A stretch of 51,624 bases of DNA from Bacillota bacterium. Lineage in GTDB: Bacteria; Bacillota; Bacilli; Alicyclobacillales; SLC66. The stretch spans positions 1 to 51,624 of the forward strand of contig JAJZEE010000013.1 of the NCBI GenBank assembly GCA_021805735.1, given 5' to 3'. Of the stretch, positions 14,704-48,569 are shown one piece after another. Below the pieces are notes generated by a model. The model saw nothing but the letters and a program-made list of their open reading frames with translations. It searched no databases and was not told the origin of the DNA. A program made the translations under genes and the position numbers. The stretch's first letter is position 1. Every line of letters starts with the position of its first letter.

Positions 14704-14781
14704 GGATTTACATGCTGTGCCCCTGCTCAGACACGGCTACGCCGAACTCGCGACGGGCATAGCATGTGAATCCTAACAAGC
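14704..14781. repeat. Hairpin repeat B (conserved core, long outer stem)
   Basis: Arms 14704-14722 and 14755-14773 form a 19-bp stem with two G-T wobbles. The core 14723-14754 has GCTCAGACA, inner stem CGGC-TA-CGCCG and AACTCGC. The right flank CTAACAAG is included because it is part of the sequence repeated in inverted orientation at 11682. It lies between the reductase operon and the DsrE gene. Confidence 0.75.
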
Positions 14782-28938: not shown

Positions 28939-29021
28939 CTCTGCCGAGATCGTATACTGTGCCGCTGTTCAGACACGGCTGCGCCGAACTCGCCCCGGCA
29001 CAGCACACGATCCCGGCAGAG
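28939..29021. repeat. Hairpin repeat C (conserved core, long outer stem)
   Basis: Arms 28939-28964 and 28996-29021 pair over 26 bp; the three non-Watson-Crick positions are all A-C on the plus strand and so G-U on the minus strand. The core has TTCAGACA, inner stem CGGC-TG-CGCCG and AACTCGC, nearly identical to repeat B. It starts 53 nt after the hutU stop. Confidence 0.75.
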
Positions 29022-29074: not shown

Positions 29075-30736
29075 CTATTCTTGCATGGGCACGCGGACGT
29101 TTCGTTCATGCGCTATCCGCTGTGCTTTCTCGTACCCTGCGTCGACATGGCGAATGACGCCCATCCCCGGATCCGTGGTGAGGACACGGCCCAGTTTGCG
29201 CTCGGCCCGTTCCGTTCCGTCGGCTACCACGACCATCCCCGCGTGTATCGAATAGCCCATCCCGACCCCTCCGCCGTGATGGACGGAAATCCAGGATCCT
29301 CCTGCCGCGGTGTTCAGAAGCGCATTCAAAATCGGCCAGTCTGCAACTGCGTCGCTGCCATCTTTCATGCTCTCTGTCTCGCGATTCGGGGAAGCGACAG
29401 AACCAGCGTCCAGATGGTCGCGCCCGATCACGATCGGCCCTTTGAGTTCCCCTTTGCGCACCAGTTCATTCATGGCCAGACCGAAACGCGCCCGTTCCCC
29501 GTAGCCAAGCCAGCAAATACGCGCCGGAAGCCCCTGAAACTGCACCTGGCGCTGCGCCTTTTCAATCCATGTCCGCAGATGCGCATCCTTCGGAAACAGT
29601 TCGAGCGCCAATTGATCCGTCCGTTTGATGTCCTCCGGATCACCCGAAAGAGCGGCCCACCGAAAAGGCCCCTTCCCTTCGCAAAAGAGGGGTCGGATGT
29701 ACGCGGGAACAAAACCGGGAAAGGAAAAGGCGTCCGCCACTCCTTCGTCAAACGCCACCTGCCGGATGTTGTTCCCATAGTCGAAGACCACGGCGCCCTG
29801 CTCTTTCATGGCCAACATCATACGGACATGCTCAGCCATCGATCGCTTTGCGCGCGCGATATAGCCAGCGGGGTCGCTCTGACGCAAATGGGCTCCCTCT
29901 GCCAGCGACAGTCCCTGTGGCAGATACCCATGCAAAGGATCATGGGCCGATGTCTGGTCGGTCACGAACTGTGGAATTTCCTTCCGGGCAAGAAGCTCCC
30001 GGTAGACATCGACGGCGTTCATTTCCACCGCCACCGACAGTGGTCTGCCCTCAGCGACGGCCGCCTTGACGAGAACAAGCGCTTCGTCAAGATCGCGGGC
30101 CGCTGCGTCCAGGTACTTCGTATCCAGTCGCCTGCGGATCCGCTCACCGTCAACTTCCGCGATGAGCGCGACGCCGCCATTCATCGTGACGGCCAGCGGC
30201 TGGGCGCCGCCCATCCCGCCGAGACCTGCCGTGAGCGTCCACGTTCCTGTCAGGGTACCGCCCGCATGCTGACGGGCAGCTTCCGCAAACGTTTCGTAGG
30301 TTCCCTGTAAAATGCCCTGTGATCCAATGTATATCCAGCTTCCCGCCGTCATCTGCCCAAACATGATCAGGCCTTTGCGGTCCAACTCCTCGAAATGTTC
30401 CCAGTTCGCCCACGCCGGCACCAGCATGGAATTCGCCAACAATACGCGCGGCGCGTCTTCGTGTGTGCGAAACACTCCCACGGGTTTCCCCGACTGAATG
30501 AGCAGCGTCTCGTCGTTTTCCAGTTTGCGCAGCGCGCGCACGATCGCATCAAACGCTTCCCAGTTGCGGGCCGCCTTTCCGCGTCCGCCGTACACAACCA
30601 AATCCGCAGGTCGCTCCGCCACGTCGGGATCCAGATTGTTCATCAGCATCCGCAGCGCCGCTTCCTGTTCCCAACCTTTGCAGGATAACTGCGCGCCGCG
30701 TGGGGCGCGAATCGTTTCACGAATCAATGTCGACAT
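29075..30736 (-). CDS. hutU: Urocanate hydratase
   Basis: Second step of histidine degradation: NAD-dependent hydration of urocanate to imidazolonepropionate. 553 aa, the usual full length. Recognisable family blocks include the N-terminal [33 protein letters not shown], the NAD-binding [20 protein letters not shown], the active-site region [11 protein letters not shown], and the C-terminal [20 protein letters not shown]. It reads left from a promoter at 30773-30801, divergent from the RpiR-type regulator. hutI follows after two hairpins. No hutH (histidine ammonia-lyase) is in the window, so entry from histidine must be encoded elsewhere, or urocanate is the imported substrate. Confidence 0.96.
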
Positions 30737-31762: not shown

Positions 31763-33097
31763 ATGCCAGAATCCCGAACGATTCAATGCGATATAAAACG
31801 GTTCATGTCTCACTTTACCGATGTATCGCAGATCGGGTCCACCGCCGACGGGGGGGTCAACCGCCCCTTCGGAAGTGAAGCAGATCTGCAGTTGCGCGCC
31901 TGGCTGATACAGCGGATCGGCGACGCAGGATTACAGGTCAAGGTGGATGCGATCGGCAATATATGGGGAGTGATGGCGGGATCTGATCCCCTGCCGGCAA
32001 TCATCCTTGGTTCACATCACGATTCGGTGCCATTTGGCGGACGATTTGATGGTCCAGTGGGTGTGCTGGCCGCTCTTGAAGTTGTCCAGACACTCCAGGA
32101 AGCTGGCTATCGCAATCGCCGCCCGCTCGGTATTGTGTCATTCACCGCAGAAGAACCGAACCCGTTCGACATTTCCACGATGGGCAGTCGCACAGTGGCA
32201 GGTCGACTCACTGCGCAGCAACTGCTGGCGGCGCGTGATGGGAACGACCGCTCTCTGGAGCTTGCGATCGCACAGGCCGGCGGCGATCTGCGCAAACTGT
32301 CTGGCATACGCAAGACAGACCAGGATCTGTTCGCCTTTCTTGAACTGCACATTGAGCAGGGGCGAAGGCTCGAATCCGCGGGTGTGGCGGTGGGTGTCGT
32401 GACAGGTATCTGTGGCATCTATCGCGAGCTGGTGTCCGTCACGGGCGAGGCAAACCATGCTGGCACAACGCGTCTCACAGATCGCCGCGACGCCCTGTTG
32501 GCAGGCTCAGAACTGACGCTCGGCGTGGAGCGGCTGTTGCTTGATAGACTCTCATGGCGCTCACGCGCCGCCAACAACCGGGAAGAAAATGCGCCTGCGG
32601 CTATTTCCCGGGACAGCCCTGAAGAAGAGTTGATCGCCACTGTGGGACGTTTTACGATCGCGCCGAACGCCCCCAATATCATCCCTGGCCAGTGTGATTT
32701 CACGGTCGAGATCAGGGGTGCGTCCAGTAGCGCCATACACAGCTTCGCGGCAGAGTTTGGCACCCTTGCAAAACGGATCGGAGCAGCGCGCGGCGTTCAG
32801 ATTTCGCGACGAGTGATCCTTGATCAGGCGCCAGAAGCCATGGATGGCACAGTGACGGACACGTTGCGGGCGGCGGCTGCAGCGATGCACATCCCCTGCT
32901 GCGATCTGTTTAGCATGGCGGGACACGACGCCACTCACATCGCCAGTTTCACAAAGGCGGGCATGCTGTTTGTACCCAGTATCGGCGGAAAGAGCCACTG
33001 CAAGGAAGAAGAGACGCGCATGGACGACATCGCGAGCGCGCTTGCGATCCTGCTTGAAACAACACTCCGACTGGACGGTTTGGACATTGACGCCTGA
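31763..33097 (+). CDS. M20-family Zn-dependent amidase (allantoate amidohydrolase-like)
   Basis: 444 aa of the hydantoinase/carbamoylase group. Metal ligands: His and Asp in LGSHHDSVPFGGRFDGPVGV, Glu in FTAEEPNPF, His in LELHIEQG and the C-terminal His in AGHDATHIA. Annotated relatives cleave allantoate, N-carbamoyl amino acids or ureidopropionate. Between hutU/hutI and a HutF-like gene, a likely job is removal of the formyl group from N-formyl-glutamate, standing in for HutG; from memory, Streptomyces hut loci have the same amidase beside hutU. Residues about 261-283 are encoded by an interspersed repeat (32543-32608) and look like an insertion between the helix ending ERLLL and the strand ATVGRF. 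Without it the protein would have the usual length of about 415-420. Confidence 0.85.
   Translation: MPESRTIQCDIKRFMSHFTDVSQIGSTADGGVNRPFGSEADLQLRAWLIQRIGDAGLQVKVDAIGNIWGVMAGSDPLPAIILGSHHDSVPFGGRFDGPVGVLAALEVVQTLQEAGYRNRRPLGIVSFTAEEPNPFDISTMGSRTVAGRLTAQQLLAARDGNDRSLELAIAQAGGDLRKLSGIRKTDQDLFAFLELHIEQGRRLESAGVAVGVVTGICGIYRELVSVTGEANHAGTTRLTDRRDALLAGSELTLGVERLLLDRLSWRSRAANNREENAPAAISRDSPEEELIATVGRFTIAPNAPNIIPGQCDFTVEIRGASSSAIHSFAAEFGTLAKRIGAARGVQISRRVILDQAPEAMDGTVTDTLRAAAAAMHIPCCDLFSMAGHDATHIASFTKAGMLFVPSIGGKSHCKEEETRMDDIASALAILLETTLRLDGLDIDA
32543..32608 (+). repeat. Interspersed repeat R, copy 1, in frame inside the M20 amidase gene
   Basis: Aligns with 48454-48519: GATAGACT, CATGGCGCT, CGCGCC, a 20-nt identical block CCAACAACCGGGAAGAAAAT, and CGCCTGCGG are shared, with about seven differences and one 1-nt gap. 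It starts exactly on a codon and is read as DRLSWRSRAANNREENAP and a few more residues. Confidence 0.75.
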
Positions 33098-33118
33098 GTT
33101 TTGCGAAGCAAAATCTCA
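33095..33118. other. Hairpin at the stop codon of the M20 amidase gene
   Basis: TGAG-TTTTGC-GAA-GCAAAA-T-CTCA forms a 10-bp stem with one bulged T, starting at the stop codon. The GAA loop closed by GC pairs resembles the apex of the first hairpin of repeat R. The 58 nt beyond it, up to the HutF-like start, are G/C-rich and contain AATTTTCATG dyads. Confidence 0.4.
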
Positions 33119-33175
33119 CGGCGCCGCCGGCAGAGGCGATGAATTTTCATGACGTGAAAGGACGGAGCGACAATC

Positions 33176-34516
33176 ATGGCAGTGGCATTGTATGAGCCAG
33201 ACTTGACGGTGATCGACGACGTGTTCGAACCGGGTCTTGCCGTTGCGGTGGAGGACGGCGGCATTATCGCCGTGGGTCCGCGCGCCGACATGAAGCGGCG
33301 CTTTTTCAACGCCGCAGCGGTGGACTGGTCCGGCATGGCGCTGTTGCCCGGTACGGTGAACGCCCACAACCACTCGTTTCAAAGTCTCCTGCGCGGCATC
33401 GCGGCCGATGAACCATTTCTCGTCTGGCGAGACGAAGCGCTCTACCGTTACACCCCACTGCTCGACGCGGATACGCTCTACGCGGGGGCGTTGCTCGCGT
33501 TTGGCGAGATGCTGCGGTACGGCGTGACGACCGTCGCCGATTTCTTTTACGTGCACGGCGACGGCACAGAATACGATGAGGCGGTGATCAGGGCCGCGAA
33601 CGATCTTGGGATCCGGTTTGTGTTCGCCCGCACCCTATATGACTGGACCGGCGCACCGCCCGCCTACATAGAATCGGTGGCAGACGCTGTGGCGCGCACG
33701 CGGGAACTCGCCATCCGCTATCAGGGGCGCCCCATGATCAGCGTTCATCCAGCCCCGCACAGTCCGCACGCGGCGTCTCCGGACATGATCAAGGCCGGTC
33801 ACAGACTGGCGCGGGAACTCGAAACACCCTACCACATCCACGTTGCCGAAGAGATGTTTGAAGTCGAAGACATCCTCAAACAATACGGCGTGCGCCCCGT
33901 TCACTATCTGGATCGTCTGGGCGTGCTGGACGAATCCATGATCGCCGTTCATCTCGTGTGGTTGGAAGAGGACGAAATCGCACTGCTCGGCGCTCGCGGC
34001 GCGGGACTCGCGTACTGCCCGTCGAGCAACATGTTTCTCGCGGACGGCGTCACCAGGCTGCCGGATCTTCTGCAGGCGGGCGTGCGCATCGGGCTCGGAA
34101 CGGACGGCGGCTGCAGCAACAATCGCACCAGCGTATTCGAAGAAATGCGGATGGCGTCCCTCTTGCAAAAAGTCCACCGCCTGGATGCGACAGCCATTCG
34201 CGCCAAAGACACGTGGCGCATGGGCACGTCCGCAGGCGGCGAACTGCTGCGCATCCCTGTGGGTCGGATTGCTTCCGGCTACAAAGCGGATTTCGTGGGC
34301 GTAAGTCTCGGCGACCTGTCGCTGCAACCGTCGTCACCCGATATCATGCTGGCCCATGTGGTGTACGCCATGCAGCCCACCGCGCTGGCGCGGGTCGTCG
34401 TAAACGGCAGGGAGGTGATGAGAGACGGCGTTCTCCTGACTGTACCGCAGACGCGCATACGCACGCTGGTTGACGCGGCGCAGGAGCGGTTCTTGCAGGC
34501 CTTTTCGCGCCAGTAA
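33176..34516 (+). CDS. hutF: Amidohydrolase, probable formimidoylglutamate deiminase
   Basis: 446-aa metal-dependent deaminase of the ATZ/TRZ/HutF group. Metal-binding HxH in VNAHNHSFQSLLRG, His in YHIHVAEE, His in IAVHLVW and Asp in GLGTDGGCSNN are all in place. The lid region VWRDEALYRYTP resembles the HutF pattern FWxWRxxMYR. In the pathway HutF converts N-formimidoyl-glutamate to N-formyl-glutamate and ammonia. Context (hutU, hutI and the M20 amidase within 6 kb) supports this over other amidohydrolase functions, but sequence alone would also allow a guanine, SAH or triazine-type deaminase. It starts at ATG 33176, 78 nt after the amidase. Confidence 0.66.
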   Translation: MAVALYEPDLTVIDDVFEPGLAVAVEDGGIIAVGPRADMKRRFFNAAAVDWSGMALLPGTVNAHNHSFQSLLRGIAADEPFLVWRDEALYRYTPLLDADTLYAGALLAFGEMLRYGVTTVADFFYVHGDGTEYDEAVIRAANDLGIRFVFARTLYDWTGAPPAYIESVADAVARTRELAIRYQGRPMISVHPAPHSPHAASPDMIKAGHRLARELETPYHIHVAEEMFEVEDILKQYGVRPVHYLDRLGVLDESMIAVHLVWLEEDEIALLGARGAGLAYCPSSNMFLADGVTRLPDLLQAGVRIGLGTDGGCSNNRTSVFEEMRMASLLQKVHRLDATAIRAKDTWRMGTSAGGELLRIPVGRIASGYKADFVGVSLGDLSLQPSSPDIMLAHVVYAMQPTALARVVVNGREVMRDGVLLTVPQTRIRTLVDAAQERFLQAFSRQ

Positions 34517-48003: not shown

Positions 48004-48420
48004 CTACGGCTTATATACCTTGGTCAGAAGTTGTTTCAGGGTTTGAATTTCATCCAGAGACAGTCCTTGCAATGTCCTCTCGTTCACAAATTCCACCGTG
48101 CCGGACAGGCTTTCCTGAAGCGCTTTTCCCGGTTCCGTGAGAAAAATGCAGTTTACACGGCGATCTGCCGGATCAGGCATTCGACGGATGAGGGTTTTCT
48201 GTTCCAGACGATCCAGCATCCCGGTCAACGTGGCGGCGTCAATGTGCAGTCGGGAAGACAGATCGGAAGCTGACACCCCGTCTTTTTCCCACAGTACATG
48301 CAACACCGTGTATTGGGGAGGGGTGATGTCGAACGGTGTCAACAGGGACTTTGAAATCTGGTTCGCCTTTTGCAGCGATCGGCTCAACAGAAACTCGATA
48401 CAATCGGTGATATTCTGCAC
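48004..48420 (-). CDS. MarR-family transcriptional regulator
   Basis: 138 aa. Helical dimer arms flank a winged helix: ITPPQYTVLHVLWEKDGVSA, recognition region SRLHIDAATLTGMLDRLEQK and wing MPDPADRRVNCIFLTEPG. MarR proteins usually repress a divergent or adjacent gene and release DNA on binding phenols, drugs or peroxide. Here the divergent DUF2000-EamA pair is the obvious target; the A/T-rich gap has CGTATACG and GTATAC-like half sites near 48556-48576. Repeat R copy 2 lies in its 5' flank. Confidence 0.88.
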   Translation of the reverse strand: MQNITDCIEFLLSRSLQKANQISKSLLTPFDITPPQYTVLHVLWEKDGVSASDLSSRLHIDAATLTGMLDRLEQKTLIRRMPDPADRRVNCIFLTEPGKALQESLSGTVEFVNERTLQGLSLDEIQTLKQLLTKVYKP

Positions 48421-48453: not shown

Positions 48454-48519
48454 GATAGACTTCCATGGCGCTTCGCGCCACCAACAACCGGGAAGAAAAT
48501 ACGCCTGCGGCGATTTTCA
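48454..48519 (+). repeat. Interspersed repeat R, copy 2 (intergenic)
   Basis: Two hairpins in a row: TGGCGC-TTC-GCGCCA, then GAAAAT-A-CGCC-TGC-GGCG-ATTTTC, joined by CCAACAACCGGGAA. Both stems are perfect here but partly broken in the coding copy at 32543-32608. It lies in the 5' region of the marR gene. Confidence 0.75.
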
Positions 48520-48569
48520 GGATAACATCCGTTTGGTCATATGTAAAATGTAATTCGTATACGTACTAT

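Follow-up and report, generated by a model that had tools for sequence, protein, structure and literature searches.

A 69-nt palindromic repeat of Bacillota and its apparent in-frame insertion into an M20-family amidase gene and other protein genes

We analysed a 51,624-nt stretch of Bacillota DNA (the window), in which the gene for an M20-family amidase has hutU and a gene for a HutF/TRZ-like amidohydrolase as its neighbours. An earlier note, made from the letters of the window alone, had described the M20 gene as that of a histidine-pathway enzyme carrying an in-frame palindromic repeat. The pathway assignment draws on the gene context only; the protein's own family hit is to TIGR01879, a hydantoinase/carbamoylase subfamily, with 305.6 bits against a cut-off of 204, and this was the sole family to pass among the 18 that matched the M20 protein. 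The features considered here are as follows.

29075-30736: hutU (962.6 bits, over the cut-off)
31763-33097, plus strand: M20-family amidase gene, hydantoinase/carbamoylase family, 444 aa (open reading frame; TIGR01879; PF01546 over residues 81-433)
32543-32611, plus strand: 69-nt repeat unit, 23 codons, residues 261-283 (repeat family; 23-residue gap relative to homologues; unit length)
32543-32547, plus strand: left pentamer, GATAG as at most left boundaries (108 of 138 complete copies) and apparently the favoured target
32555-32570, plus strand: hairpin A, TGGCGC, 4-nt loop, GCGCCG (consensus structure and pair counts)
32578-32611, plus strand: hairpin B, CCGGGAAGAAAATGCGCC, TGC loop, GGCTATTTCCCGG, partly eroded in the M20 copy (consensus structure and pair counts)
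32612-32616, plus strand: right pentamer GACAG, a diverged copy of the left one, resembling a target duplication (flank listing and pentamer-matching tests)
33083-33128, plus strand: related but different repeat module overlapping the M20 gene at its 3' end, stop codon included (87-91% over 47 nt relative to copies in L173, L098 and L065)
33176-34516: HutF/TRZ-like amidohydrolase gene (below the cut-off of the families shown)
48004-48420, minus strand: 138-aa open reading frame near the second repeat copy
48454-48520, plus strand: second repeat copy, intergenic (91.5 bits), upstream of the minus-strand open reading frame at 48004-48420 by about 34 nt

The insert in the M20 gene starts at codon 261 and thus on a codon boundary, as had been proposed. 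The segment shared within the window, estimated earlier at about 65 nt, measures 69 nt (32543-32611) with the right pentamer at 32612-32616 in addition, and the protein is indeed longer than its family, by exactly 23 residues and not by about 25. The gap is of 23 residues relative to most homologue rows and of 24 or 25 relative to the others. The additional residues lie between ERLLL and DSPEEELIATVGRF, and on their removal the protein reads, by eye, ERLLLDSPEEELIATVG, which has the same length as EKMLLDQQQDELVGTIG of the homologue L037. Matches to solved relatives break at the insert too, with residues 256-291 of the query set against residues 249-259 of 3n5f, and the insert falls outside the motifs GSHHDSV, FDGP, AEEPNPF, LELHIEQG and GHDATH. 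The helix and the strand on either side of it are as labelled in the earlier note; structure prediction from an alignment of five sequences gave a mean pLDDT of 45 and was set aside.

All three species of the genus that we examined carry the extra 23 residues, namely the window genome (G000) and the congeners G002 and G001, whose M20 proteins are 96% and 87% identical to that of the window, respectively. The presence of the same insert in three separate genomes rules out an artefact of one assembly. The residues are found in none of the 17 other M20 homologue rows (15 from other genera and two paralogues within the genus; 14 distinct genes once three duplicates are removed), and an M20 match was absent from 7 of the 18 family genomes searched. 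The insert probably predates the divergence of the three species. At the start of a second contig of G002 (L060, G002:C78:1-105), the last 35 M20 residues are encoded again with 100% identity to the window, in addition to the full gene on C138, and we regard this second M20 end as a strain variant or a duplication. The module over the 3' end of the M20 gene had 41, 41 and 44 matches in the three genus genomes, and the last residues of the protein may derive from it.

The sharing between the M20 gene and the intergenic region at 48454 is real. In a direct-repeat search of the window, 32564-32611 paired with 48474-48521 at 90%, and a covariance model seeded with 33 aligned copies, including both window copies, scored the two at 94.4 and 91.5 bits; these were the only strong copies in the window, the next best match reaching 11.7 bits. 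Further copies, for which the earlier note had suggested a search, occur genome-wide. A 91-nt BLAST query around the coding copy had 45 matches in G000 (170 contigs, 3.76 Mb), many of which span query base 14 to about 87, corresponding to 32543-32616 of the window, and found at least 47 copies in G001 and at least 41 in G002. The covariance model found at least 82, 147 and 87 copies in G000, G001 and G002, respectively. These copy numbers are lower bounds, since 40 candidates per genome were scored for the query search and 150 for the model. Genome-wide matches and the covariance-model scores within the window rule out a chance repeat. The copy at 48454 is 67 nt long up to the right pentamer GATAA by eye and 68 nt by the model ends, and nearly the same flanks surround a copy at G002:C28:2397. 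The window also holds another repeat pair, 14712-14756 and 28954-28998 (87%). Letters similar to this pair form part of a large palindrome that directly adjoins the left side of the 69-nt unit in several copies on other contigs, so that mosaics result.

Extraction of 120 stretches around copies, together with the earlier loci, yielded 204 copies, and the 138 complete ones were listed with their flanks. Unit length, counted between the first bases of the left and right pentamers (the ends of partial hits being nominal), was 68 nt in 91 of 202 copies and 69 nt in 78, or 169 of 202 together, and longer units of 90-94 nt accounted for seven. GATAG, the left pentamer in 108 of the 138 complete copies, is the right pentamer in 71. 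For a test of pentamer matching, loci with identical right flanks were merged, which kept 121 of the 138. A left pentamer other than GATAG was accompanied by an identical right one at 9 of 27 loci, where 0.57 were expected and the maximum in 5000 shuffles was 4. At the remaining 18 of the 27 loci the two pentamers were unlike, and simple target duplication is therefore not the whole story; the pattern would result from duplicated targets that changed afterwards, and also from recombination with a donor that carries GATAG. Within arrays, adjacent full copies have the pentamer in common and are spaced by 65-70 nt in G000, G001 and G002. Two places in G013, from another genus, hold three units in tandem with a period of exactly 69 nt (G013:C140:31352-31565 and G013:C178:10003-10216).

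Comparison of the three species revealed filled and empty sites that differ by exactly 69 nt in three genes. An acyl-CoA ligase gene is filled in G000:C128 and empty in G002:C58; a LegB/GalE-like sugar-nucleotide epimerase gene is filled in G002:C80 and empty in G000:C98, and the epimerase gene in G001:C32 is also devoid of the element, but aligned with other gaps; an RlmI-like 23S rRNA methyltransferase gene is filled in G001:C76 and empty in both G002:C79 and G000:C45. A non-genic copy, G000:C158, is missing from G002:C108, where one GATAG remains, and each of these empty sites, genic and non-genic, has a single pentamer. By the criterion of empty sites, the repeat is mobile. The element is read forward in the M20 and ligase genes and in reverse in the epimerase and RlmI-like genes.

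Family profiles point to insertion in two more genes. In a LolD-like ABC ATPase gene (G002:C149), positions 1-79 of ABC_tran are matched before a 90-nt copy and positions 85-136 after it; no orthologue of this gene was matched at E 1e-20 in the two congeners, and it is therefore without an empty site. In G000:C167 and G001:C195, an EamA match precedes the copy and another EamA match, from position 30, follows directly after it. Judged from sequence comparison, in-frame insertion is thus well supported at six gene loci (M20, ligase, epimerase, RlmI-like, LolD-like and EamA). Copies in NuoC/D-like, PucR-like, kinase-like, permease, QueG and APH-like genes, which are probable cases or lie near gene ends, were excluded from this count because no clear continuation of the family profile was seen on both sides of the copy; for example, the part before the element in G001:C208 (NuoC/NuoD-like) had no Pfam family match. 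At the same place in this NuoC/NuoD-like gene, G002:C62 (L153) has one unit and G001:C208 (L155) has two in tandem, as if the insert grew by whole units.

The lengths of open-frame copies within genes (69 nt in 14 of 16) would be circular as evidence for frame preservation, because such copies are in frame by choice, and they were replaced by a test on excised sequences. Every copy with enough flank and a near-full model match was excised (157 of the 204); open reading frames that cross the junction and have 300 aa or more were sought first, the unit length modulo three was taken afterwards, and stops were not scored. The length was divisible by three in 18 of 23 copies lying across long open reading frames, compared with 42 of 134 elsewhere (Fisher p=3.0e-5). 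When orthologues and a tandem pair were merged, 13 of 18 were divisible by three (p=0.0011). Fisher tests were run at thresholds of 200, 250, 300 and 350 aa, and those at 200, 250 and 350 aa gave p between 9e-5 and 7e-4. Open reading frames stand in for genes here, and domain support is lacking for some of the 23 (for example G001:C274:5154, G000:C158 and G002:C105). The five copies that do not fit are G001:C29, G001:C302, G002:C86, G002:C117 and G002:C142, one of them near the end of an APH-like gene.

We consider it probable (roughly 0.85) that the repeat is a mobile palindromic element, non-autonomous and selective for its target, and that those of its insertions which keep the frame survive because they are tolerated. 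In such a scheme, an enzyme recognising the folded hairpins would mobilise the element in trans and join it to GATAG-like pentamer sites, so that the element ends up between direct copies of the pentamer. Selection would then remove most insertions into genes, and 69-nt insertions at tolerant positions would persist, aided by the four of six frames that are open.

The mobilising enzyme was sought among the Y1 transposases of the three genus genomes, and none was identified at the loci examined. There were 8, 13 and 6 Y1 transposase matches (27), a repeat copy lay near one of the 12 loci examined, and the ends, clearly readable at three of the 12 (one group), were TTGAC...GATCAA, unlike those of the repeat. 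IS200/IS605-type mobilisation was considered, and these three loci gave no match to it.

The fixed GATAG boundary, the head-to-tail arrays (65-70 nt in G000, G001 and G002; 69 nt in G013) and the unequal pentamers at many loci could also indicate that the repeat spreads without a transposase, through recombination, either site-specific or homologous, in which small circles or arrays take part at GATAG sequences, as has been suggested for the TTTAT-linked bcr repeats. This is possible but rather doubtful, as the matching non-consensus pentamers at nine loci speak for target duplication.

The consensus repeat has four open frames, two in each direction; the remaining forward frame meets stops in the flanking TAGs only, and the remaining reverse frame contains one TGA. 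At least one frame is fully open in all 174 copies of 56 nt or more. It may be asked whether the element has been shaped to cross genes, its 69 nt, equal to 23 codons, and its four open frames being selected to stay so. We think this unlikely; if true, a gene-crossing element would repeatedly supply a free-living bacterial lineage with in-frame protein inserts, whatever its orientation.

The retention of the M20 insert in three species raises the further question of whether it has been co-opted as a functional part of the enzyme, such as a new loop or regulatory segment, its presence there being adaptive. The dN/dS of the insert was 1.06 (G000-G002) and 0.72 (G000-G001), on 18 synonymous sites only, compared with 0.17 and 0.18 in the rest of the gene for the same pairs, so that, within the few sites available, no constraint at the protein level is visible. 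Nucleotide divergence within the insert is low, with 3 changes in 69 positions between G000 and G001 as against 159 in 1263 in the rest of the gene, which could be taken in favour of co-option; however, the slow divergence reaches into the flanks, where the adjoining 69-nt windows show 4 and 5 changes. A neutral passenger would also be expected to show more synonymous change than was seen, though the flanks are slow too: G001 differs from the others by 0 to 1 synonymous changes on the 18 sites of the insert, where we estimate that about five would be expected, the dS in the rest of the gene being 0.38. Gene conversion, constraint on the DNA or RNA, or a short recombined tract could all account for the low divergence. 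Co-option is in our judgement quite unlikely, and the M20 insert is most likely, as far as the sequences indicate, a tolerated passenger and not a functional domain.

A consensus structure derived from 33 close copies predicted two hairpins. The erosion of the stems described earlier for the coding copy holds in that two positions of hairpin B differ from the consensus; hairpin A pairs throughout, with an outer T-G wobble. Relatives of the repeat scoring 23 to 72 bits were present in six other genomes of the family, from four other genera. An order-wide scan with the model matched 23 of 59 genomes, many of them with single and weak matches. Two genomes of another family in the same order, G057 and G023, had 79 and 24 weak matches (best E 2.1e-7 and 4.8e-7), which are possibly distant relatives of the repeat. 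In an alignment of 22 sequences from five genera, picked by hand, compensatory double changes were observed at 8 of 16 pairs, in both hairpins. Paired cells amounted to 95.7%, compared with 83.6% on shuffling and at most 54.8% when partners were slid by 1-3 columns, although the structure is favoured over the slid versions because it was derived from the same alignment. The covariation score exceeded that of all 500 shuffles and all six slid controls. Of five structure measures, four beat nearly all shuffles, the exception being the number of further pair types (13 versus 13.0). No Rfam family matched the window at gathering score or any of 10 repeat loci at E 0.5, and a known Rfam RNA family was ruled out for these sequences.

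Two stable hairpins with compensatory changes would suit a transcription terminator or a stabiliser of mRNA 3' ends, the genic copies being accidents. Such a role is very unlikely for several reasons. The copies show no bias to gene ends (23 in convergent, 22 in divergent and 54 in co-directional gaps, with 50 further copies inside a proxy reading frame and two at an edge, in a rough test with proxy frames of at least 120 aa), hairpin B is followed by GATAG and not by a T-run (by eye), and neither the window nor the 10 loci matched Rfam.

The M20 gene reads open through its one copy in all three examined congeners, as it might if it were the source of the repeat, having always encoded these residues with the intergenic copies as derived fragments, but this can be dismissed with near certainty, as the other 17 homologue rows lack the residues, M20 flanks surround only three (the M20 ones) of 138 complete copies, other genes have clean empty sites, and the repeat is also present in other genera, where its sequence has diverged but its structure is kept. 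The earlier note had treated the gene as target, open to challenge by homologues of repeat-free species with the same residues; the absence of the residues from all 17 rows upholds that assignment, and not every comparison genus is repeat-free, because some have relatives of the repeat elsewhere in the genome.

The elements closest in behaviour to the present repeat are the Rickettsia palindromic elements (RPE) and Wolbachia palindromic elements (WPE), which the available parts of the literature describe as small palindromic repeats lying between genes and in frame within conserved protein genes, with orthologues carrying the insert at the same place (PMC10969869, PMC3767692, PMC4224334, PMC2229807). 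The repeat resembles them in that it inserts in frame and keeps the frame at the M20, acyl-CoA ligase, epimerase, RlmI-like, LolD-like and EamA loci, and the comparison with RPE made in the earlier note is apt in this respect. Its remark that such an element would be unusual here holds only in part, given the other in-frame copies in these genomes and the in-frame small repeats published for Rickettsia, Wolbachia, Neisseria and enterobacteria. The length of RPE is about 100-150 bp, and they form a long stem-loop and occur in Rickettsia, whereas the present unit is usually 68-69 nt long, forms two separate hairpins, is bounded by GATAG and occurs in Bacillota. It is thus set apart from RPE by description (size, fold and host), in addition to its lack of an Rfam match.

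The bcr1-bcr18 repeats of the Bacillus cereus group come from the same phylum, and the present repeat resembles them in its type of boundary. They are described in the accessible part of the source as intergenic, 100-400 bp long and linked to a TTTAT motif, with 11 to 130 copies of bcr1 per genome (PMC6542083). The motif is GATAG in the present case, and that part of the source does not mention in-frame insertion of bcr elements into genes (PMC6542083). ERIC/RU-1 of enterobacteria and NEMIS of Neisseria are MITE-like; according to excerpts of two papers they are small, non-autonomous, and have open frames by which they become fused in frame to genes (PMC2229807, PMC2759123), and the present repeat is similar in these respects. 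Most such repeats are stated in one of these excerpts to end in inverted repeats and a TA dinucleotide (PMC2229807). The present element is, by eye, without either; in the alignment of copies, its ends, ACTnnCATGG and ATTTTCCGG, are not complementary. REP sequences, as outlined in the accessible text, are 20-40 bp long and mostly carry GTAG or CGTC tags (PMC3733652). REP, BIME and REPIN elements share with the present repeat short palindromes, many copies and mosaics. REP sequences are not known to have pentamer duplications.

A literature search, conducted mostly outside subscription journals, turned up, among the matches listed, no publication that describes an element like this from the group. 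We call the family new because none was found among those matches, its behaviour being already known from RPE and WPE; the repeat is a new family of a known kind of in-frame palindromic repeats, distinguished from RPE by description. Base-exact empty and filled sites in three genes of sister species make the question of how a repeat becomes a protein segment directly testable, and a natural series of enzymes with and without the 23-residue insert is now available. Documentation of in-frame palindromic repeats is fullest for Rickettsia and Wolbachia; enterobacteria and Neisseria have yielded fewer cases, and the present repeat represents a different family with the same behaviour in Bacillota genomes of about 3.8 Mb.
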